From Pelagicoccus sp. (GTDB taxonomy: Bacteria; Verrucomicrobiota; Verrucomicrobiia; Opitutales; Opitutaceae): a stretch of 64,000 bases of DNA. Each line of letters starts with the position of its first letter. Within the stretch, counting starts at the first letter, position 1. Of this stretch, positions 3,097 to 15,798 are shown piece after piece. The stretch lies in contig JANQRJ010000018.1 in the NCBI GenBank assembly GCA_028284635.1, positions 1-64,000 on the forward strand, written 5' to 3'. Below the pieces are notes generated by a model. It had not been told where the DNA came from, did no database searches, and saw nothing but the letters and a program-made list of their open reading frames with translations. Position numbers and translations under genes: made by a program.

Positions 3097-3144
3097 ATGA
3101 GAAAGTTCGATATCCTACCATGCAAGCCATCGCACCCCAACTGA
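3097..3144 (+). CDS. Possible 15-codon leader peptide overlapping intI start
   Basis: ATG at 3097 is preceded by a good ribosome site (GAAAGGA, 3084-3090). It reads MRKFDILPCKPSHPN before stopping at 3142-3144, overlapping the first codons of intI in another frame. The intI ATG at 3120 has no comparable ribosome site of its own. Translational coupling through this leader is possible; coding is unproven. Confidence 0.25.
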   Translation: MRKFDILPCKPSHPN

Positions 3145-4427
3145 GAGGAGAGTTTGAAGCGGAGCTCAAGAGAAGAGCGATTCCTGCTCCAAAAAGATCT
3201 CACTACACGAAATGGCTGCTGTACTACATGGATTTTTGCCGGAAGTACTATCATGCCCCAGATGATAGCGAGTCTTGCGACGCCTTCATGATAAAGCTCG
3301 GAGAGAAGGGCCAATCGAGCGAGAGGCAGCGGCAAGCGGCGGCGGCGATCGCCCTGTATTGGGAGCTGAAACGCAAGGAAAACGGGAAGTCTGCGGACAA
3401 TGAGAATCTCGCCATTGGTCCTTCGGAATCATGGGAAGTCGCATTTCGGAGACTGAAGGACTGTATATTGACGCGTCACTATTCGAAGAACACCTTAGCC
3501 ACCTACACCAAGTGGGCACGCCAGTTTTGTCAGTTCCTAGGCGAGGTCTCATTGGAGGATGTCAAAGCCAAGGACGCAGCAGATTTCTTCACATTTCTGG
3601 CGACCCGCAAGAAGGTCGCCGCCTCTACGCAAAACCAGGCTTTCAATGCCCTTCTCTTCTTCTTCAAGCATGTTCTTGATCGCGAATTCGAGGGATTCGA
3701 GGGCGTAGTCAGGGCCAAGCGATCCAACTATATACCTGTGGTGCTCTCTCGCGAAGAGGTGGATCACGTGCTGGAGCGACTCACCTACCCCTACGATCTA
3801 ATCGTAAAGCTGCTCTACGGCTGCGGACTGAGGCTTTTCGAAGCGGTAAATCTAAGAACGGGCTGCTTCAATTTCGATGCAGGCGTACTGACCATACATG
3901 ACGGCAAAGGGAAAAAGGACCGGACCGTTCCCTTGCCCGGCAGCTTGGAAGCGGAACTGCGCAGACACATGAGACGCGTGGGCTTCCTGCATGACAAAGA
4001 CCTGGCCGAAGACTTCGATGGAGCGTTCATGCCAAGCGCCCTAGGACGGAAATACAGGAACGCGGCGAAGGAATTTCCGTGGCAATGGTTTTTTCCGGCG
4101 CGCAATCTGACCTATGTCGCGGAAACAGGAGAAAAGCGGAGGTATCACCAGCACGAAACCCATGTTCGCAAGGCAATCAAGACGGCGGTCGCTAAAGCGA
4201 AGCTGACCAAGAGGGCTACCGCGCACACGTTCCGACACAGCTTCGCCAGCCATTTGCTGCAGAACGGCTATGATATAAGAACCATACAGGAACTGCTCGG
4301 ACACAGCAGCGTCAAAACGACGATGATATACACCCATACCGTGAAGACGAAGACGATCAAGGAAGCGAAGAGTCCCTTGGATTTCGAAGGGCGAGGTGTA
4401 AATTCCATCGCGGACGACGCGAGCTGA
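3120..4427 (+). CDS. intI: Integron-type integrase (tyrosine recombinase, IntI family)
   Basis: 435 residues. The catalytic domain shows R238 (GCGLRLFE), K263 region (DGKGKKDR), H369-x-x-R372 (HTFRHSFASHLL), H395 (LLGHSS) and Y404 (MIYTH). Between the Lys and the HxxR box sits the IntI-specific insertion (FPWQWFFPARNLTY to HETHVRKAIKTAVAKA, about 319-360), which distinguishes integron integrases from XerC/D. It is about 100 residues longer than usual IntI: an extra SAM-like helical segment (about 20-82) precedes the ordinary core-binding domain (about 105-200). It integrates and excises cassettes at attI/attC; here it is divergent from the cassette array at 1-2624, the classical layout. No clear attI was identified; it should lie at 2977-3119 or near 2690. 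Confidence 0.88.
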   Translation: MQAIAPQLRGEFEAELKRRAIPAPKRSHYTKWLLYYMDFCRKYYHAPDDSESCDAFMIKLGEKGQSSERQRQAAAAIALYWELKRKENGKSADNENLAIGPSESWEVAFRRLKDCILTRHYSKNTLATYTKWARQFCQFLGEVSLEDVKAKDAADFFTFLATRKKVAASTQNQAFNALLFFFKHVLDREFEGFEGVVRAKRSNYIPVVLSREEVDHVLERLTYPYDLIVKLLYGCGLRLFEAVNLRTGCFNFDAGVLTIHDGKGKKDRTVPLPGSLEAELRRHMRRVGFLHDKDLAEDFDGAFMPSALGRKYRNAAKEFPWQWFFPARNLTYVAETGEKRRYHQHETHVRKAIKTAVAKAKLTKRATAHTFRHSFASHLLQNGYDIRTIQELLGHSSVKTTMIYTHTVKTKTIKEAKSPLDFEGRGVNSIADDAS

Positions 4428-4831: not shown

Positions 4832-5497
4832 CTACTCGAAGTACTCGGAGAGTTCGGCGGCGGTCCAGGGGCTGCGGGAGCCGGTGTCGGCGCGAATGGC
4901 GGCGACTTCTTCTGGGGCCACTTCGCTGGCTTCGTTGCCCCAGGAGGTGCGGATGTAGTTGACGACGGCAGCGATCTCGGCGTCGTTCCATACGGAGCCA
5001 AAGGCGGGCATAGCGCCGTTGTAGGTGTTGCCCTTGACTACGATTTCGCCGCTGAGGCCTGAGAGTAGAACCTTGATGGGGAGATTGGGGTCGCCTGTCA
5101 CCCATTCCGAGCCAACGAGGGGCGGGAAGGCTCCGGCCAGGCCTTGGCCGGTGGCTTGGTGGCAGGCCACGCATTGCTGGGCGTAGAGAGCGGCTCCATC
5201 GACGACAACAGGGCCTGGATCCTCTTTCGGGCGATTGATGTAGGCCTGCATGGCAGCGAGCTCCTCGCGGCTGGAGAGAACGCCTTGAGAGTCCATGTCG
5301 CCCACGTAGCGACGTACGTAGAACCAGGCGAAGACGAATACCACGATCAATGCCAAGGAGGTGAAAAACGTCACGGGCGAGGCGGCCACGGGAGTGCGGC
5401 GGATCCGGGCATGCGTGCGGATCAGGCTTTCGTCGTTGGCATGGCCCTGGTCGATCGCGGGAAGCTGGGGGGAGTCTTGCTGATCGTCTTGCATCAC
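4832..5497 (-). CDS. CcoP-like membrane-anchored monohaem cytochrome c
   Basis: 221 residues with an N-terminal cytosolic stretch of about 40 residues and one transmembrane helix (FFTSLALIVVFVFAWFYV, about 45-62). A single class-I cytochrome c domain follows, with haem motif CVACH, and an axial Met probably in GAMPAFGSVW. Canonical CcoP of cbb3 oxidases has two haems c; this protein has one. It overlaps the upstream ccoO-like gene by four bases and is last in the operon. It probably transfers electrons in the periplasm as part of the ACIII/cbb3-like assembly. The electron acceptor is not evident here. Confidence 0.8.
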   Translation of the reverse strand: MMQDDQQDSPQLPAIDQGHANDESLIRTHARIRRTPVAASPVTFFTSLALIVVFVFAWFYVRRYVGDMDSQGVLSSREELAAMQAYINRPKEDPGPVVVDGAALYAQQCVACHQATGQGLAGAFPPLVGSEWVTGDPNLPIKVLLSGLSGEIVVKGNTYNGAMPAFGSVWNDAEIAAVVNYIRTSWGNEASEVAPEEVAAIRADTGSRSPWTAAELSEYFE

Positions 5498-6120
5498 TTG
5501 AGGGAAAGCTTTTCGGGGCTGGGGGCCTCTTCGATGTCGTACTGGATCTTCAGGCTTAGCATGTAGGCCGCCAGGGCTTCGGCCTTGCGGGTCGGCACCA
5601 CTTCGTAGCCTTCCTGGACCGCAAACCCCTCGGGCAAGTCGAGAGCGCGGCTGGAACCTTCGCCGACGATGGGGCGCTTCTCGAAGAGCTGCGGATAGGC
5701 GGGCATGTTGGAGCCGGGCGAGGCGATCTGCGGATTATAGAAGTGGAGCAGATGCCAAGCGGCATCGTCGCGGCGGGCGCCGACATTGGTGAGGTCAGGT
5801 CCGATGCGGAACGCGCCGGTGAAGACGGGGCTCTGGTCGATGTAGTCGAGCGGGAGGGTCTGCCGGTCGCCCCAGCCTCGAGCGATGTCGTTTCCGGCTG
5901 CAAAGCGTACTTGCTGGGTATGGCAAACGACGCATCCGAGTTCCTGATACGTTTCTCGGCCGAGGGCGGCTCCGCCGGTCATGACAGTGGGCACGCGGGC
6001 ATCGCCGGATCCTACGGGCCGGAGCTGACCGCCTTCGGAAATGGGCTTCACCAGGGTCAGAGCCCAGGAGAGGGAGACGATGACGAACACGCCCAGAAAG
6101 ATGAAAGGACCTCGGTTCAT
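5494..6120 (-). CDS. ccoO: CcoO-like monohaem cytochrome c subunit
   Basis: 208 residues: one N-terminal transmembrane anchor (about 5-25), then a monohaem domain with CVVCHTQQVR. The characteristic CcoO blocks follow: ARGWGDRQTLPLDY, FRIGPDLTNVG and the PGSNMPAYPQLF segment that supplies the axial methionine. In cbb3 oxidases CcoO accepts electrons from CcoP and feeds the CcoN haems. It overlaps the CcoN-like gene and the next cytochrome gene by four bases each, so the three proteins are likely made together. CcoO itself appears intact even though its CcoN partner lacks cofactor ligands. Confidence 0.88.
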   Translation of the reverse strand: MNRGPFIFLGVFVIVSLSWALTLVKPISEGGQLRPVGSGDARVPTVMTGGAALGRETYQELGCVVCHTQQVRFAAGNDIARGWGDRQTLPLDYIDQSPVFTGAFRIGPDLTNVGARRDDAAWHLLHFYNPQIASPGSNMPAYPQLFEKRPIVGEGSSRALDLPEGFAVQEGYEVVPTRKAEALAAYMLSLKIQYDIEEAPSPEKLSLK

Positions 6121-7598
6121 GAAGGCGTGTACTCCAATTCGGGGGCGGACTTGAGCAGTTCGGCGGACTTCTCCTTTTCGCTGCGCGAGGAAAGAAGCAT
6201 CCAGAAAAAGGATACGGCATACATCAGGCTGCCGCTGAGAAAGAAGACGAAGCCGAGCGTGGCGATGAAGAAGTAGGGCTGGACGCTGGCGAGAGCCTGC
6301 ACGGTATCGACCTCGCTGCCGTTCAGCAAGGCGCCGTGGGCGGAACCGGCGGAAATCAGGCTCGCCGCGATGACGAAGATGCCGAGGCCTTGTATCCAGA
6401 ATTGGACGTCAATGAGTCCCGAGCTGGGCAGTTCCTTGTTCAGCAGGCGCGGCAGGATGAAGTAGCTGCCGCCCATGAAGGCCATGCCGCCGAAGCCAGC
6501 TAGGAAGAGGAAGCGCAGGCCGTTTTCGAACTGGGTGAACTGCAGCGTCTCCTGGGGGCCGCGCAGCGATCCGAAGACGATCAGCAGGCTGGCGACTAGA
6601 AAGGCGACCACGCTGTAGGCGACGAAACGGGCGGAGAGCGAGTCCCAGATCTTGGAGAAGCTGGAGAGCAGGCTAGAGACGAACTGCATCCCGAAAATGG
6701 ATACCGGCAAGAAGAGAGCGAAGCTGGCGATGACGCCGACGGAGGCTACCCAGGCGGGAAACGGTCCATTGACCAGAGCGGCCAGGCCGCTGCAGCTGCT
6801 GGCGGCGAGCCAGGTCCAAAAGGCGATGCCGGACTGGCGGTAGCCGACGATGTGCTGGCCCAGCGTTTTGGGGATGAGATAGTAGAGAGTGGCGAAGGCG
6901 AGCGGAGCGATCACCAGGCCGGAGAGATTGCCGAAAAACCATGAGGCGACCACGCTCTGGAACACTCCCTGCGCGGGAACGAGAAAGATCATGACCTGGG
7001 CGATCATGTAGATCCAGACGAAGGAGAAGACCGCCGCCAGGACATACCATTGAGAAACGAAGGTGGAGCGGTAGGCCCGAGCCTTGAAGGCGAGCAGTAT
7101 CCAGATCCCCATGCCGAGGAAGGAGACGAAGAGAAGCGGAGCCGCGTAGCTGGGAAACTCCAGCAGGCGGAAGGGACGCTGGTCGCCGACCAGAATTCCG
7201 ACCAGACCGACGATAACGGCGAAATTCCAGGCGCCGCCGGCGATGGTCAGCAGATAGGAGTTTCCGATGGGGCGACCTGCCAGGCGCGCCGAGATCCAGC
7301 AAACGCAGGCCAGGCCCGCGTTGAAAAGCCAGCCATAGACCAGGACGTTCCAAAACGCGGGGTAGACCTTGCCGTAGCTCAGGCAGGAAAACTCGGCGAG
7401 GTAGCTCGGCGAGTGCAGCTTGATCGAGCTGATCAGGCCGAGCAGGGAGGCAACGAGAAGCCAGAAAACGGAGGCCTTGATGGTGCCGAGCGTGGCGAAG
7501 CGGGTCGATGCGTCGATGCCGAGCTCCCGTTCGCGCTGCGATCCGCCGCCTTCCAGGCTTGGGAAAAGCGACGAACAAAGGTTGCAGATGAATCTCAT
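6117..7598 (-). CDS. CcoN-like haem-copper oxidase subunit I homologue lacking all cofactor ligands
   Basis: 493 residues, about 12 transmembrane helices, similar along its length to cbb3 subunit I (compare WFFGNLSG...LIPK with the usual WFYGHNAV...VPK). The protein has only three histidines (62, 249, 421), none at a ligand position. By eye the low-spin haem His becomes F82 (KVYPAFWN), the first CuB His becomes N224, the CuB His pair becomes A273-A274, and the two His of the haem-ligating helix become L361 and F363. It therefore cannot bind the usual haems or CuB and should not reduce oxygen. The frame is intact and translationally coupled to ccoO, so it is a conserved gene rather than a pseudogene. 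It may be a structural scaffold joining CcoO/CcoP to ACIII. Confidence 0.85.
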   Translation of the reverse strand: MRFICNLCSSLFPSLEGGGSQRERELGIDASTRFATLGTIKASVFWLLVASLLGLISSIKLHSPSYLAEFSCLSYGKVYPAFWNVLVYGWLFNAGLACVCWISARLAGRPIGNSYLLTIAGGAWNFAVIVGLVGILVGDQRPFRLLEFPSYAAPLLFVSFLGMGIWILLAFKARAYRSTFVSQWYVLAAVFSFVWIYMIAQVMIFLVPAQGVFQSVVASWFFGNLSGLVIAPLAFATLYYLIPKTLGQHIVGYRQSGIAFWTWLAASSCSGLAALVNGPFPAWVASVGVIASFALFLPVSIFGMQFVSSLLSSFSKIWDSLSARFVAYSVVAFLVASLLIVFGSLRGPQETLQFTQFENGLRFLFLAGFGGMAFMGGSYFILPRLLNKELPSSGLIDVQFWIQGLGIFVIAASLISAGSAHGALLNGSEVDTVQALASVQPYFFIATLGFVFFLSGSLMYAVSFFWMLLSSRSEKEKSAELLKSAPELEYTPS

Positions 7599-7641: not shown

Positions 7642-7920
7642 CTAGCGGGCGTTCTCCGCGATCACCAGCTCCTTGGCCCGATCGATAGGCAGGCGAACCT
7701 TGCCAGCGGCAGGGTCGATGACCTTGTAGTTGTTCAAGAGGTCTTCCGCCTCGCCGCGATGCTCGGCGAGCGAGGGGCGATCCACAGGCACGGGCGCCTC
7801 GACGGCATCCTGAGTGACGTAGACCTTGCTGAGCAAGTACCAGAAGAGCAGCAGAATGACGACGGCGGCGAGAACCGCCGGGAACGAACTTCGAGAGGGC
7901 GTGTGGGCTTGGGCGCTCAT
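7642..7920 (-). CDS. Small single-pass membrane protein of the ACIII operon
   Basis: 92 residues, with one transmembrane helix near the N-terminus (FPAVLAAVVILLLFWYLLSKVYV, about 13-35) and a hydrophilic C-terminal half with no cysteine or haem motif. It lies 9 bases after actF and 43 before the CcoN-like gene, so it is cotranscribed. I do not recognise a named family. By position it could be an accessory subunit linking ACIII and the cbb3-like module. Its topology probably puts the tail in the periplasm, facing the cytochromes. Confidence 0.65.
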   Translation of the reverse strand: MSAQAHTPSRSSFPAVLAAVVILLLFWYLLSKVYVTQDAVEAPVPVDRPSLAEHRGEAEDLLNNYKVIDPAAGKVRLPIDRAKELVIAENAR

Positions 7921-7929
7921 GACGTGAAA

Positions 7930-9198
7930 CTAGTGATTGTGGTTCAGGCATTCGCCGATCCGAGGGTCGCGGACCGGGATGACCTTCACCTTGTTGAAGC
8001 TGCTCCAGTAGGCCCACAGGAGGACGCCGATCCCCGCCAGAATGGCGCCGGCCAACCAAAGGACGTTAAGCGGGCTGGAGAAGAGCTGCGCGGCGTAGCC
8101 GTTCTCGTCCTTGAGAGCGGGCAGAACGTTGAAGATGATGTCGAAGAGCTGCATGAAGAGGATCCAGCATGCCATGAACACCATGGAGGGGTACTTCGTC
8201 TTGAGCGGGTACTGCAGCAGGAAGAGGAAGGGGAAGAGGAAATGGCCGAATATCAGGAACATGGATACGCCGTACCACATGCCTTGCTCGCGGTAGTTGT
8301 ACCAGAAGGTTTCCTCCGGGATATTCGCGTTCCAGATGAGGAAGTACTGCGAGAAGCTGATGTAGGCCCAGAACACGGTGAAGGCGAAGCACAGGGTGCT
8401 CAGATCGTGCAGGTGCTTGGTATTGAAGATCCCCTTGAGCGGACCCTTGGCGACCAGGAAGGCGGCGGTCAGCACGAGTACGGCGAGGGCTGCTCGCATC
8501 GCGTTGGAGAAGATCCAGACGCCGAACATGGTGGAAAACCAGTGGTACTCCAGACCCATAATCCAGTCGAAGCCGGCCATCGACCAGGTCAGGGCGACCG
8601 CGATCAAGCCGATCGCCGCGAGCTTGCGGCTCGAGTAGGTGTGTTCGGCCGAGCCGTCCTTGTCCTGCGAGAAGGAGTTGCGACGGAAACAGCGGGCGAA
8701 GTAGATCCAGACTCCAAAACAAAGAACGGCGCGAGCCCAGAAACCGAATGGGCCGAACTCGTTGAGCCACCAGGTCTTCTTCAGGTAGAGCACGTCGGTG
8801 CCGACGGTGCCGTGGCCGGGCAGCGCATGGCTGGGGTCCATCCAGATCCAGACCACGCCTTGGTCGCCGCCAAGGTAGGTCAGCAGAAAGATCGGAATGA
8901 AAAGGACTCCCATCCAAGGCATGGCGGCGAGGAAGTTCTCGGCTTGACGGCGGATAATGGTCGACCAGTAGGCGTCGAAAATGTGGTGGATCATCACCAG
9001 GAAGAGCATGCCGATGGTGATCGAGGTCGCGAAGAGCAGACCGATCAAGTAGCAGAAGGCCGCCATGCGCGTGTCGACGGCGAAGCCGATGCAGCATACG
9101 ATCAGGCCGACTGCGCCGAGGACCAGCCACTTCTTGGGATTGGGCAGCGAATCGTCGGGGATCGCGGCCTGCGAGAGGGTTGCGGCTTCAGCACTCAT
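7930..9198 (-). CDS. actF: Alternative complex III subunit ActF (integral membrane)
   Basis: 422 residues with about 10 transmembrane helices. Recognisable blocks include TRMAAFCYLIGLLFATSI, the MIHHIFDAYWSTIIRRQAE segment and GFDWIMGLEYHWFSTMFG, typical of the quinol:electron-acceptor oxidoreductase subunit ActF (a partner of the NrfD-like ActC). ActF is an integral subunit of the quinol-oxidising ACIII core. It overlaps actE by four bases and is followed closely by a small membrane-protein gene. Confidence 0.9.
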   Translation of the reverse strand: MSAEAATLSQAAIPDDSLPNPKKWLVLGAVGLIVCCIGFAVDTRMAAFCYLIGLLFATSITIGMLFLVMIHHIFDAYWSTIIRRQAENFLAAMPWMGVLFIPIFLLTYLGGDQGVVWIWMDPSHALPGHGTVGTDVLYLKKTWWLNEFGPFGFWARAVLCFGVWIYFARCFRRNSFSQDKDGSAEHTYSSRKLAAIGLIAVALTWSMAGFDWIMGLEYHWFSTMFGVWIFSNAMRAALAVLVLTAAFLVAKGPLKGIFNTKHLHDLSTLCFAFTVFWAYISFSQYFLIWNANIPEETFWYNYREQGMWYGVSMFLIFGHFLFPFLFLLQYPLKTKYPSMVFMACWILFMQLFDIIFNVLPALKDENGYAAQLFSSPLNVLWLAGAILAGIGVLLWAYWSSFNKVKVIPVRDPRIGECLNHNH

Positions 9199-9809
9199 AG
9201 TCCTAGTTCCTCCTTCACCGCAGGGGTTAGATCAGCGGAGCTGCCGTTGGCCGCCCGCTGCAGGGCCCGCAAGTAGAGCACCACATTCCAGCGGTCTTCC
9301 ACGGAGAGCTTGTCCTTGTAGGGATACATCCGGCCGCTGCGGCTGCCGTTCACGATATAGTGGTAAAGCTCGCCTTCGGGCATGTCCAGGTAGGGGGGAG
9401 CAACGAGGTTGGAGATCGCGGTCATGCCGTAGCTGGCGGTGCGGCCTTGCCCGTCGCCGGCGGCGCCGTGGCAAACGGTGCAGTAGATGTTGTAGCGTTC
9501 CTCTCCGCGAGCCATGGCTTGCTCGTCGACCTCGATAGGGAAGCCGGAGCCGAAGGAATCGCCCTTCTTGCCGGTGGCCATGTACTCGTCCTCGAAGAAG
9601 GTCCCACGAGCGACGGTGCCTGGCACCGGCAGGCGGTCGGTACGGCTATCGGAGAAGAAGGCGCTTTCCGCCTGCGGGTGGTACTTCGGCATGCGGTCCA
9701 TGTCGTCGAAGACCTCGATGGGCGGCTTGGTGAATTTCGAGCCTCGGAAGCCGAGCACGGAAATCGCCGCGACCACCACGAAAAAGAAGATCAGGTATAC
9801 GTAGCGCAT
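9195..9809 (-). CDS. actE: Alternative complex III subunit ActE (monohaem cytochrome c)
   Basis: 204 residues. An N-terminal hydrophobic anchor is followed by the ActE signature PPIEVFDDMDRMPKYHPQ (about 31-48) and a cytochrome c domain with CTVCHGAAGDG. A methionine ligand probably lies in GRMYPYKDKL. It is the monohaem periplasmic subunit that accepts electrons from the pentahaem ActA and passes them to an oxidase or soluble carrier. It sits 4 bases after actD and overlaps actF. Confidence 0.9.
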   Translation of the reverse strand: MRYVYLIFFFVVVAAISVLGFRGSKFTKPPIEVFDDMDRMPKYHPQAESAFFSDSRTDRLPVPGTVARGTFFEDEYMATGKKGDSFGSGFPIEVDEQAMARGEERYNIYCTVCHGAAGDGQGRTASYGMTAISNLVAPPYLDMPEGELYHYIVNGSRSGRMYPYKDKLSVEDRWNVVLYLRALQRAANGSSADLTPAVKEELGL

Positions 9810-9813
9810 CGGA

Positions 9814-10371
9814 TTATTCCTCGAGATCGGACACCTTGACCGGGTGCAGGCTTTGCACGAACTCCGCCGTCTTCGCGTCGTCGAACTGCGGGTCCTGTTT
9901 CTCTATATAAAGGAAGAACTTGTCGTCCGAAGAGTCCGCCACGTCGTCCATCTTGAGGACTGGATGGTAGTGCATCGGAAGCTTGTTGAGGATGAACATG
10001 CCCGCGATCGAAGCAAAGGCGGAGAAGAGAATCGTCAGTTCGTAGGAAACCGGAAAAGCAAAGTGCGGGCTGAAGAACGGCTTGCCGCCCACGATGAGCT
10101 CGTAGCCGCTGCTCAGGATCCCGAGGTCCAGATCCGTGGCGCTGGTGAAGAAGATCATGCTCATGCCGGTGAGAAAGCCGGCCGTGCCACCCAATATCGT
10201 GAAGCGCGGCACCCAGGAGCGCTTGAGGCCCATGGCCGCGTCCATGCCGTGGATGGGAAACGGAGTGATCACGTCCCAACACTTGTAGCCGGCGTCGCGC
10301 ACCTTCTCCGCCGCATGCATGATGTCGGCCGGGGAATCGAATTTTGCGATTATTCCAAATTTGTCCGCCAT
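9814..10371 (-). CDS. actD: Alternative complex III subunit ActD (DUF3341)
   Basis: 185 residues with two transmembrane helices (about 57-77 and 105-127) and the family pattern FDSPADIMHAAEKVRDAGY near the N-terminus plus CWDVITPFPIHGMD. ActD is a conserved integral subunit of ACIII without cofactors. It falls between actC (30-base gap) and actE (4-base gap), in the standard ActA-F order. Length is normal for the family. Confidence 0.9.
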   Translation of the reverse strand: MADKFGIIAKFDSPADIMHAAEKVRDAGYKCWDVITPFPIHGMDAAMGLKRSWVPRFTILGGTAGFLTGMSMIFFTSATDLDLGILSSGYELIVGGKPFFSPHFAFPVSYELTILFSAFASIAGMFILNKLPMHYHPVLKMDDVADSSDDKFFLYIEKQDPQFDDAKTAEFVQSLHPVKVSDLEE

Positions 10372-10400: not shown

Positions 10401-11821
<1,421 letters not shown>

Positions 11822-11822
<1 letters not shown>

Positions 11823-14800
11823 CAGTGGCGCCCTCCTTCTTTGGCGTGAGCTTCCCCGTGACCGGGAGCGTCATGCGCTGTAGTGCCGTAGGGGCTCTTA
11901 GGAGCCTTGGCTTTGTACTCCACTTTGGAAAGCGGCTGGTCGAAATAGTCCGGCATCTTCGGGTTGGGATTGCGAATTCGGGCCATGAAAGTGGTGCGCG
12001 GACGTGTGTTCAGGTATCCAAGCACCGAATACGAGCGCTCGTTGTCGCGCAGGACGGACACTCGGCTGTCGGAGTCCTTCAGGTCGCCGAAGACGATCGC
12101 ATCGGTCGGGCAGGCTTGCTCGCAGGCCATCTGAATCACGCCGTCGGGAACGCGAACGTCCGATCCATCCTTGGCTTTCGAGAGCTGGTCGATCTTGGCC
12201 TGGTTGATGCGCTGCACGCAGAAGGTGCATTTCTCCATCACGCCACGCATGCGGATGGACACGTCCGGATTCTGAGCCATCTTGACGAGCTCGGGCATGC
12301 CCTTGGGAGCGAGCGGGCCGAGGTAGAGCTTGTCGAGCTGGCGCTCCTGGTAATCGAAGAAATTGAAGCGGCGGACCTTGTACGGACAGTTGTTGGCGCA
12401 GTAACGCGTGCCGATGCAGCGATTGTAGGCCATGGCATTGAGGCCCTCCTCGTCGTGCACCGTGGCGTTGACCGGGCAGACCGTTTCGCAGGGCGCCGTC
12501 TCGCAATGCATGCAGGCGACTGGCTGGAGCGAAACCTGCGGATCTTCGGGAATCTCGTCGTTGGCCAGACCGGAAGAGAAGTAGCGGTCTAGGCGGATCC
12601 AGTGCATCTCGCGCCCGCGACGCACCTGGTCGCGACCGACGATGGGGATGTTGTTCTCGCTCTGACAGGCGATCACGCAAGCGTTGCAGCCGGTGCAGAC
12701 ATTGAGGTCGATGCTCATGCCCCACTGGTGGACGCCAGTGAAATTCGGATGCTCGTAGATCGAACCGCCACGTGGCGTTTCCGTGATCTTCTCCTGAGTA
12801 GAGAACTTGTCGCCCTTCTTGCCGTAGATCGGCGGAGAGTGAGACTCCATACCCACACTGGAAACGAAATCGGGATCGGCCGCGTAGTCGTCGAGGTTGA
12901 CCTCGCGCACGATGGCCCGGCCTTCCATCGACCAGTGCTCCTGGGTGTTGGCAAGCTGGTAGGTCTCGCCGGTAAGACCGATGCTCGCTCCAGAGGCGAA
13001 TGCGGTCGCATCCAAAGAACGGATACCGTAGGCGCTGAAACCGGAATTCGCGCCAATGCGGCCGGTCTTGCTGCGGCCATAGCCGAGCGGAAGGATAACC
13101 GTGTAATTGTCTAGACCGGGCTGGATGTGGATGGCGCCGGTGATCTCGCGACCGCCTACCTTGATGGTAGCGACTTTGGCGAACTGGCGACCGTCGCGAA
13201 CCTTGTTGGGGTTCTTGCGGGCGACCTGGATCATCGAATTTGGAGCGACGATACCGAGATCCTTAGCCAGGCGGGGGCTGATGACGATGGCGTTGTCCCA
13301 AGTGAGCTTGGTCATGGGATCGGGACACTCCTGCAGCCAGCCGTTGTTGGCGTAGCGACCGTCGTCCACTGTCGCGTCGTTGAGGAAGCGGACTTCCAGA
13401 CTCTCCTTGCCGCTTGGGGCAGCCGGAGCGGAGAAGCCGCCGAGCCAATCAGCCAAGGCCACGCCGGAAATGTTGGAACGGCTCTTGCGGTAGCCGCTGG
13501 CCACGAATCCCTCGTTGAGGAACTTGTCGAAGGCGCGCTTGCCGGGGTTGCCATTGCCGCTCTGGAAGGTGGCGTAGACCAGGCTGTAGCCATCCGAATC
13601 GGTTTCGCCAAGCAGACCTCCGAGTAGTTCGATTTCGGATACACCGTCGAAAAGCGGCAAAATCATGGGTTGCTGGGCGACCACATCCCCATCGTAGGTA
13701 CGGCCATCGCCCCAAGCTTCCAGGAAGTGGGCTTCGCAAAGATGGTAGGTGGAAGCTTCGGAAGTCTCGTCGGCATAGTAGCCGAGTCGAACTACCGTAT
13801 CCACTTTTTGGAGCAAGCCTGCGAAATCGAGGTCCGCCGGAGCGTTGTAGACCGGATTGCCGCCAGAGATGACGAGCTTGGAAATCGCGCCGGAATCGAT
13901 AGCGGCTGCGAGGTCGGCGAGCGACGAGGAATCGCCGGAATCGACTTCGACCAGGGAAACGGTCTTGCCGAGGCCGCCGAGCTTCTCGTTGACGAGCAGG
14001 CCGAGGGCCTGCGTCTCGGGCGGAAGGTGCTGGCCAGTAAAAACGACGCTACGGCCCTTGTGGGAGGCAAGGTCTTCAGCGCACTGGGCGACCCACTCGC
14101 GGGTGTCGGCATCGAGCTTGGCCGCGAGAGGCTCCAGGATGGGACGGAGGCGGTTGCCTTCGACGCCGAGTTCGAGCTCGAGAGCGAAAGCGGCGAGGAA
14201 TGCGGTCATCTGACTGCTGGCCAGACGCTTGCGGTGGTCGGCCATACCACCGGTGATCGAGAAGTTGCTCTCCACGGAGTAGAGACGGCTCATGTCGTCC
14301 TTGCTGGAACGCACTCGGCGACCGGAAGCAAACTGCTTGGAGAACTTCACCGAGCCCTGCTCCTCGTCGAGGAAGTCCGCATCCACGGAAAGGATACGGG
14401 AGGCATGCGAGAGATCGTATTTCGGTTGAAGGTTCGCGCTGGACGCTACCTTGGCTGCGGCTGCGGCGGCGTTGGAAACGCTGACCGCGTCATACTCGAC
14501 CCAAAGGGCTTTCGGGTAGGCGGCTTGAAAGGCTTTCTTGAGGCGCAGGCGAGTCGGCGAGGAGGAGCTCTCCATCAATACGGCGGCGCCAGCACCATCG
14601 TTGGCGGCAAAATCGTCCTTCAACGAGGCGAGCAGATCGGAAACCTCTGCATTGCTAATCTTGCTGCCGTTCTTGGTGTGGGCGGTTGCGCGATCGGGAT
14701 CGTAGAGATCGAGGACGGCCGCCTGGGCCTTGCGGGTGGTGCCACCTTTGTAGCCGGGATGATCGGCGTTGCCTTCGATCTTGGTGGGGCGGCCGGTGTG

Positions 14801-15145
14801 GGTCTCGACCAGCAGCGGAAGGGTTTCGCCACGCAGGGAGAAACCTGTCGCATAGTAGAGCGGCTCGCCGGGAACTTGATGCTCGGGCGCTTTGGAGTGC
14901 GGCAGGATGTGCGACTCGGGACGGCGACAGCCGGCGAAGCCAATGCCTCCGAGAGCGAAGGACGCGGCCATGATCTTGAAGAAGTGGCGGCGGTCCACTT
15001 CATTCATTTCCGAGGCTTCCGGGCCGAACTCGCGCTCTACTTGTGAAAGGAATTCGGGAGTCTGAGCCAGGTCGTCGAGGCTACGCCAATAGCGGGGACC
15101 AGACAGTTCCGAGGAGGAAGGATGAGGATGGGGAGCGCGTTTCAT
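11822..15145 (-). CDS. actB: Alternative complex III subunit ActB (fused molybdopterin-like and Fe-S)
   Basis: 1107 residues from ATG at 15145; this start gives an ATGA overlap with actA, and the longer open frame lies inside actA. A Tat-type signal is present ([17 protein letters not shown]) followed by a possible lipobox cysteine (GFAGC). The N-terminal two thirds resemble a molybdopterin oxidoreductase fold, which in ACIII carries no Mo cofactor. The C-terminal third binds Fe-S clusters: [39 protein letters not shown] and ACEQACP. It carries electrons from ActC to ActA. Length is slightly above typical. Confidence 0.93.
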
Positions 15146-15798
15146 CGGTGGCAGCCTGTGCAGCTTTGAGGAGGTGTGATGTTGCGTTCTTCGATCGCTT
15201 GCAGGCCGTATTCGATCTGGCCTTTCTTGCCGCCGGGATGCTCCCAGCCGAGATTGTAGACTTCGTCGATGGGGCGAAGGACTTCCTCCGGATGACGGTG
15301 GCAGTCCAGACACCAGCCCATGCTGTGGGACTCGGCATGCTTGACTACCGGCATCTCGTCGACGCGACCGTGACAATCGACGCAGGATACGCCGCGGTTC
15401 ACATGGGCCTCGTGGCTGAAGTAGACGTAGTCGGGCACCTGGTGCACGCGGTTCCAGGCGACGGGCTCGCCGCTGGCGTAGCTTTCGCGAATCGGCTCGA
15501 GCAACGGGCTGTCCGTCTTGACCATGCTATGGCAGTTCATGCAGGTCGAGGCGGAGGGGATGTTCGCTACGGGCGATTCATCGACCTTGTCGTGGCAATA
15601 GCGACAGTCCAAGCCGAGTTCGCTGACGTGGAACTCGTGGTCGTAAGGCACCGGCTGGGACGGCTCGTAGCCGACACGAGTGTACTTGGGAGTCACATAG
15701 TAAGTGATGCCGGCAAGCAAAGTCGTCACGGATACAAACGCGAATACGATGACCTTGAGCGGCAGCGTGTTTGACCACTTTGGAAACACTTTCGACAT
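15142..15798 (-). CDS. actA: Alternative complex III subunit ActA (pentahaem cytochrome c)
   Basis: 218 residues: an N-terminal membrane anchor (LKVIVFAFVSVTTLLAGITY, about 14-33), then five CxxCH haem sites (CRYCH, CMNCH, CVDCH, CLDCH, CTGCH). Additional His residues (for example DHEFH and SHEAHVNRG) are suited to bis-His ligation. This is the pentahaem subunit heading the standard actABCDEF order. It is preceded at 36 bases by a small membrane-protein gene. Confidence 0.93.
   Translation of the reverse strand: MSKVFPKWSNTLPLKVIVFAFVSVTTLLAGITYYVTPKYTRVGYEPSQPVPYDHEFHVSELGLDCRYCHDKVDESPVANIPSASTCMNCHSMVKTDSPLLEPIRESYASGEPVAWNRVHQVPDYVYFSHEAHVNRGVSCVDCHGRVDEMPVVKHAESHSMGWCLDCHRHPEEVLRPIDEVYNLGWEHPGGKKGQIEYGLQAIEERNITPPQSCTGCHR

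Follow-up and report, generated by a model that had tools for sequence, protein, structure and literature searches.

Genes of alternative complex III (ACIII) linked to those of a C-type oxidase have been reported from Opitutaceae and from methanotrophs of Verrucomicrobiota (Refojo et al., 2010, as cited in the relevant passages of PMC8498564), and ACIII forms supercomplexes with caa3 or aa3 oxidases in Rhodothermus marinus and Flavobacterium johnsoniae according to the sections of PMC5928083, PMC8361435 and PMC8552683 that deal with them. The NrfD-like ACIII subunits ActC and ActF are presented, in the corresponding part of PMC8076601, as cofactor-free membrane subunits supporting peripheral redox proteins. 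The present analysis concerns a gene in a 64,000-nucleotide stretch of a Pelagicoccus sp. genome (assembly GCA_028284635.1, contig JANQRJ010000018.1, positions 1 to 64,000; hereafter the window) that lies behind an ACIII gene set and encodes a protein like CcoN, subunit I of cbb3 oxidase, in which every haem and copper ligand is replaced. The protein is no lone oddity: Verrucomicrobiota have many damaged CcoNs linked to ACIII, found beside many intact ones. It is likely not an oxidase but a structural platform for the transfer of electrons.

An earlier note on this gene had assigned the topology of cbb3 subunit I, and the searches agree: the product matches Pfam COX1 (E 1e-28), all five of its PDB matches are cbb3 CcoN chains (best 9g6b_A, 1.5e-16) and the predicted fold, which spans 443 residues, is that of CcoN, a prediction I make with confidence. 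The NCBIfam ccoN equivalog model (TIGR00780) gives 93.5 bits, below its cut-off of 583.15. Reading of the frame likewise bears out that the protein holds three His in total (62, 249 and 421). In several alignments the six ligand columns are F82, G223, A273, A274, L361 and F363, so that both low-spin haem b ligands, the haem b3 ligand and the three CuB ligands are gone. Five of these positions had been named correctly, while N224, given for the first CuB ligand, was one residue off and aligns with the Asn directly after that His in canonical CcoN. The Tyr ahead of the CuB His pair, which has an active-site role in CcoN, is replaced by S267. Misalignment was rejected as an explanation, all 78 damaged patterns described below coming out identical in a second alignment, as was ligation by the remaining His, none of the three falling on a ligand column. 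A NorB-like role was also discarded: NorB holds its haem and FeB with His ligands, and there is no His here to do so. On sequence grounds the loss of the catalytic site is all but proven.

The gene is nevertheless kept. As had been claimed, its 493-codon frame is intact, coupled by four bases to an intact ccoO (6117-6120), and linked to actF, with ccoO overlapping ccoP in the same manner (5494-5497). The ACIII set is complete, with actABCDEF in order and ActD, NrfD-like ActC, ActF, penta-haem ActA and mono-haem ActE all present, and is followed in reading order by a gene for a 92-residue protein, ccoN, ccoO and ccoP. The ratio of non-synonymous to synonymous substitution (dN/dS) for damaged CcoN was 0.045-0.168 in five pairs from the window's genus; four further pairs gave 0.104, 0.195, 0.202 and 0.354, and six intact pairs 0.035-0.176. 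These values come from a simple NG86 script in which dS was in many cases undefined or greater than 1, so that their order of magnitude alone counts, and no value was obtained for the pair L122/L123. All are well below 1, in keeping with the earlier claim that the gene is maintained, and together with open frames in all eight genus copies (the window's included) they counter sequencing error or a pseudogene. Among 156 columns that hold one residue in at least 90% of intact CcoNs, 52 keep that residue in at least 80% of damaged copies, and 20 keep it in fewer than 20%, the latter including three of the six ligand columns and that of the Tyr.

The earlier note had predicted orthologues that share these losses, and such orthologues were found. 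The eight genus copies read F, G, A, A/S, L/V and F/Y at the six columns and contain 3-5 His per reading frame. That the protein is a lone freak was rejected by comparing 112 homologues, only 6 of which read HHHHHH, and 49 loci of relatives: these were the readable ACIII-linked loci of 57 related genomes, with 14 intact and 35 damaged, after removal of L166 (contig end) and of L126, L164 and L165 (not ACIII-linked). Of 288 genomes drawn evenly across the phylum, 91 had a match, and 65 ACIII-linked loci were read in them, 21 intact and 44 damaged, with only actE and actF observed at L193-L195 and G096 outside the count; the two sets share twelve loci. Five of 25 more distant matches from this draw were read (L218-L220, L225 and L226), all of them HHHHHHY, outside an act string and uncounted there. 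Pooling gave 157 non-redundant ACIII-linked loci (identical CcoN sequences dropped), 79 of them intact (six His plus the Tyr) and 78 damaged, the window's included. L225 is among the intact loci although its act genes sit on the strand opposite its CcoN, and the pool includes a skewed named set (80 loci; 6 damaged among 66 linked), drawn with an intact-rich query alignment and left out of frequencies.

The number of His kept was six in 79 loci, five in none, four in 2, three in 4, two in 6, one in 39 and none in 27. The damage is thus not chance, because 78 loci have lost two or more of the six His and not one of the 157 has exactly five. The Tyr survives in a single damaged locus (L160). Partly damaged patterns include HHARHH (L049), THHHQQ and YHRHHH (L104), and in Isosphaeraceae, of Planctomycetota, one protein (P0098) reads HDGHLH and one record (L100) is intact. 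Seven loci (L147, L149, L155, L158, L161, L213 and L214) carry QQRHQQ at the former haem and copper columns, a polar set that contrasts with the apolar residues at these columns in the genus of the window. Two further records stood out: L058, titled Candidatus Omnitrophota, has an intact act-ccoNOP string and groups with Verrucomicrobiota rows, which points to transfer or a mislabelled bin, and at L126 (genome G020) a 999-residue open frame, close to matches for aa3 and cytochrome b, contains a second CcoN-like protein that has every ligand.

ACIII appears to be the sole complex III of the window's genome, with other electron exits present, because an ActC query matches actC itself and nothing else, cytochrome b gives no match in that genome, and further oxidases are encoded: aa3 on contig C37, a CcoNO pair with all ligands on C104 and bd on C4. 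Among the relatives, all 35 genomes whose copy is damaged have a further COX1 match, as do 12 of the 14 whose copy is intact; cytochrome b matches were lacking in 24 of 35 and 10 of 14, respectively. Of the loci newly read in the phylum draw, all with short flanks, 19 of 37 damaged ones and 1 of 16 intact ones have an aa3 COX1 or COX2 gene that begins right behind ccoP. In 20 downstream regions, picked partly for aa3 genes behind ccoP, COX1 and COX2 followed in 14 (13 damaged, 1 intact), COX2 alone in one and neither in five; ligand motifs were seen in most of these COX1 proteins, and the COX2 alignment shows the CuA Cys/His/Met set. Act genes, damaged ccoN, ccoO, ccoP, COX1, COX3 and COX2 form one string at L227-L233 and L236-L240.

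Starting from what was directly observed (absent ligands, gene order, haem c sites in CcoO and CcoP, dN/dS well below 1 and repeated occurrence), the simplest reading is a platform with a relay, because fold, place and haem c are kept while the haem b, b3 and CuB ligands and the Tyr are lost. I consider it reasonably probable that the ligand-free subunit I is a cofactor-free membrane platform that holds CcoO and CcoP on ACIII and likely relays electrons to other oxidases. The ancestor would have been a functional ACIII-cbb3 unit like that of the intact relatives; another oxidase may have made the O2 site of cbb3 unnecessary, whereupon ligands and active-site Tyr would be lost, and the trio may have stayed bound because ACIII depends on it for electron exit or for assembly. 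From quinol, electrons would then run through ActB, ActA and ActE to the haem c of CcoO and CcoP and on to a soluble cytochrome c or the CuA of aa3, bypassing CcoN, which would neither reduce O2 nor pump protons.

Several observations weigh against this platform and relay. CcoN, CcoO and CcoP are predicted to be bound subunits of ACIII from gene order and overlaps, that is, from genes and not from protein. The Met of CcoO stands at its exact column in 58 of 77 damaged loci (60 within six columns) compared with 73 of 74 intact ones, one of which is truncated (Fisher p 1.2e-6, truncated row left out and relatedness ignored), and CcoO evolves faster in damaged loci (identity to outgroup rows 0.437 versus 0.508), so part of the CcoO/CcoP relay may be dispensable or retuned. 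The aa3 genes of the window's genome lie on a different contig from the act-cco locus (C37 versus C88), and the difference between 12 of 14 and 35 of 35 genomes is too small to establish cause. Cytochrome b matches in 11 of the 35 damaged-copy genomes mean that ACIII need not be the sole complex III in those genomes. Damaged loci with aa3 neighbours cluster in lineages outside the window's order and are thus not independent, and some intact loci also have aa3 genes (L087, L099 and L183, the first two within a few kilobases). Finally, in one isolate described from the phylum ACIII genes stand next to a caa3 set, according to the part of PMC13274419 that covers it, so not every ACIII needs the cco trio.

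The Met of CcoO is replaced in damaged loci by Cys (9), Lys (3), His (3), Arg (2) or Ser (1), the loci noted for Cys at the axial position being L198-L200, L205-L207 and L211; ligation of haem c by Cys or Lys would shift its potential greatly. CcoO passes electrons to haem b of CcoN in cbb3 oxidases, and it may have been released from constraint once that haem was gone, with CcoP still in use.

How often the ligands were lost depends on the tree, all trees being quick searches and all counts taking regain of six His and the Tyr as implausible. On trees of ActB, ActC and ActF, the intact/damaged label needs 14 changes for 108 loci (10 on starred branches) and 21 for 148 loci (16 on starred branches), 9 of the 157 loci having been dropped from the latter for want of a full ActC or ActF; midpoint-rooted, the 148-locus tree has 22 separate all-damaged clades. 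The CcoO tree needs 9 changes, 2 of them on starred branches. The CcoN tree, built without the ligand columns, needs only 4 and places 36 of 40 damaged rows together, which would suit one or a few ancient losses followed by horizontal transfer of a damaged ccoNOP into several act loci. So would the occurrence of QQRHQQ in lineages that stand apart on the ACIII tree (L147, L213/L214 and a main group) and a comparison of nearest intact neighbours, mixed overall (median rank 13 of 68), in which, for L152 and some of the QQRHQQ group, the correlation between the likeness of CcoN and that of ACIII to intact rows was close to zero or negative. Such a history is possible, if rather doubtful. It has to contend with the changes forced by starred branches on the ACIII tree, and a single damaged clade is rejected there (p 2.2e-5) and on CcoN too (p 0.0068). 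The 36 grouped rows sit on long branches, and long-branch attraction is likely behind their grouping because damaged CcoNs evolve fast: their identity to 19 outgroup rows is 0.374 versus 0.547 for intact ones, with ACIII equal (0.514 and 0.510). Moreover, at five of the six columns one or another of the 36 still has His, so that most ligands were lost separately unless some were regained. The lower bound is four losses on either tree, and my best estimate is sixteen or more.

The ligand-free CcoN could also be an assembly or stability subunit of ACIII and nothing else, with CcoO and CcoP carried along without electron flow. The retention of fold landmarks while the active site disappears would fit, as would the faster evolution of CcoO and the 19 of 77 damaged loci in which its Met is missing from the column. 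Passengers should, though, lose their haem sites, and CXXCH is found in 77 of 77 CcoOs (L148 has no recognised CcoO) and 75 of 76 CcoPs (one masked; L049 and L162 without a recognised CcoP), with the CcoP Met kept in 74 of 76; I regard this version as unlikely. Recurring polar patterns, with QQRHQQ and HSQKF each in 7 of 78 damaged loci, might hint at a new task for the empty haem pocket, such as conducting ions or protons or binding a quinone, an idea made quite improbable by the small or apolar residues of the window's genus there and by the lack of a set common to all. A haem or metal still held by other residues is very improbable: up to four His remain in some damaged copies such as L049 and L104, against the His-free columns and sparse His of the genus. 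A decaying gene en route to loss, for which the divergence of damaged CcoN beside an unchanged ACIII and the pair with dN/dS 0.354 might speak (the ActF of that pair has 0.328), is hardly credible given the open genus frames, the low dN/dS, the same position and order across many lineages and an inner stop at 1 of 49 linked relatives (G033).

The platform reading may extend to Methylacidiphilum. The five COX1 matches of genome G197, probably strain Kam1, comprise two aa3-like by motif, one NorB (3o0r_B, 8.6e-89), one damaged CcoN and one presumably ba3-like, its NCBIfam matches all being below cut-off. A second CcoN was looked for among the other four matches, and none is one. The ACIII-linked CcoNs of Kam1 and M. 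infernorum lack five of the six ligands and the Tyr. The relevant passages of PMC6688271 tie the ACIII-adjacent cbb3 oxidase of this genus to high O2 affinity, and those of PMC8498564 and PMC10205796 count the cbb3 type as one of three oxidase types. I give even weight to the wider proposal that ACIII-bound cbb3 turned into cofactor-free pseudo-oxidases at least 16 times in Verrucomicrobiota, that ligand-free CcoN with CcoO and CcoP is a permanent module feeding aa3, and that the 'high-affinity cbb3 oxidase' of Methylacidiphilum is among them and does not reduce O2.

The features of the locus are collected in Table 1. A family search with the 92-residue protein gave no match; weak relatives occur at the same position in many, not all, loci, intact and damaged, and it is perhaps a small linker subunit. 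A promoter and terminator scan did no better than on shuffles.

Table 1. Features of the act-cco locus, in window positions.
Feature	Positions	Strand	Remarks
tyrosine-recombinase gene	3120..4427	+	Phage_integrase 1.1e-33; adjoins the ccoP end, facing ccoP
ccoP-like	4832..5497	-	221 aa, one CXXCH, Cytochrome_CBB3 2.5e-14
ccoO	5494..6120	-	208 aa, one CXXCH, Met in SNMPAY, FixO 1.5e-18
ccoN, ligand-free	6117..7598	-	493 aa, ATG, uninterrupted; CcoN fold predicted, haem/CuB ligands gone
F363 codon	6510..6512	-	column of low-spin haem b ligand 2
L361 codon	6516..6518	-	column of high-spin haem b3 ligand
A273 and A274 codons	6777..6782	-	columns of CuB ligands 2 and 3
S267 codon	6798..6800	-	column of active-site Tyr
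G223 codon	6930..6932	-	column of CuB ligand 1
F82 codon	7353..7355	-	column of low-spin haem b ligand 1, where canonical CcoN has His
92-aa protein	7642..7920	-	between actF and ccoN; one hydrophobic stretch
actF	7930..9198	-	6f0k_F ActF 3.6e-55
actE	9195..9809	-	mono-haem cytochrome c, from sequence
actD	9814..10371	-	Pfam ActD 1.8e-57
actC	10401..11822	-	NrfD family, NrfD 7.2e-21
actB	11822..15376	-	Fe-S protein; listed TTG start mechanical, true start likely farther downstream
actA	15142..15798	-	five CXXCH; Cytochrome_C7 8.2e-15

Of all parts of a haem-copper oxidase, subunit I is the one that would least be expected to outlast its metals, and here it survives in many lineages. It does so in one operon, with intact relatives alongside, which amounts to a natural experiment on the cohesion of III-IV supercomplexes after catalysis is lost. 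Databases give such genes names of the kind cbb3-type cytochrome c oxidase subunit I, and the genes serve as evidence for high-affinity respiration; a ligand check is advisable ahead of any cbb3 call in Verrucomicrobiota.

The ACIII-cbb3 gene neighbourhood is already known; the titles and abstract openings looked at made no mention of ligand loss in CcoN, and Refojo et al. (2010) may have noticed it earlier. The linked C-type oxidase of Opitutaceae and methanotrophs has the gene neighbourhood of the window, its intact form makes up 79 of the 157 loci here, and the pertinent passages of PMC8498564 describe it as an oxidase and leave ligand loss unmentioned. Compared with the cbb3 CcoNs of known structure (3mk7, 8smr, 6xkw, 9g6b and 9g83), the window's protein is alike in predicted fold and in its neighbours ccoO and ccoP, and unlike in lacking all six ligand His and the active-site Tyr and in its sub-cut-off NCBIfam score. 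In R. marinus and F. johnsoniae, as far as the sections cited above go, ACIII is tied physically and genetically to an active oxidase, whereas the tie in the window is known from genes and involves a core without ligands, with an aa3 set following in some lineages. The role proposed for the ligand-free CcoN resembles that given for ActC and ActF in the part of their source cited above, but the family is different, CcoN deriving from a haem-copper enzyme.
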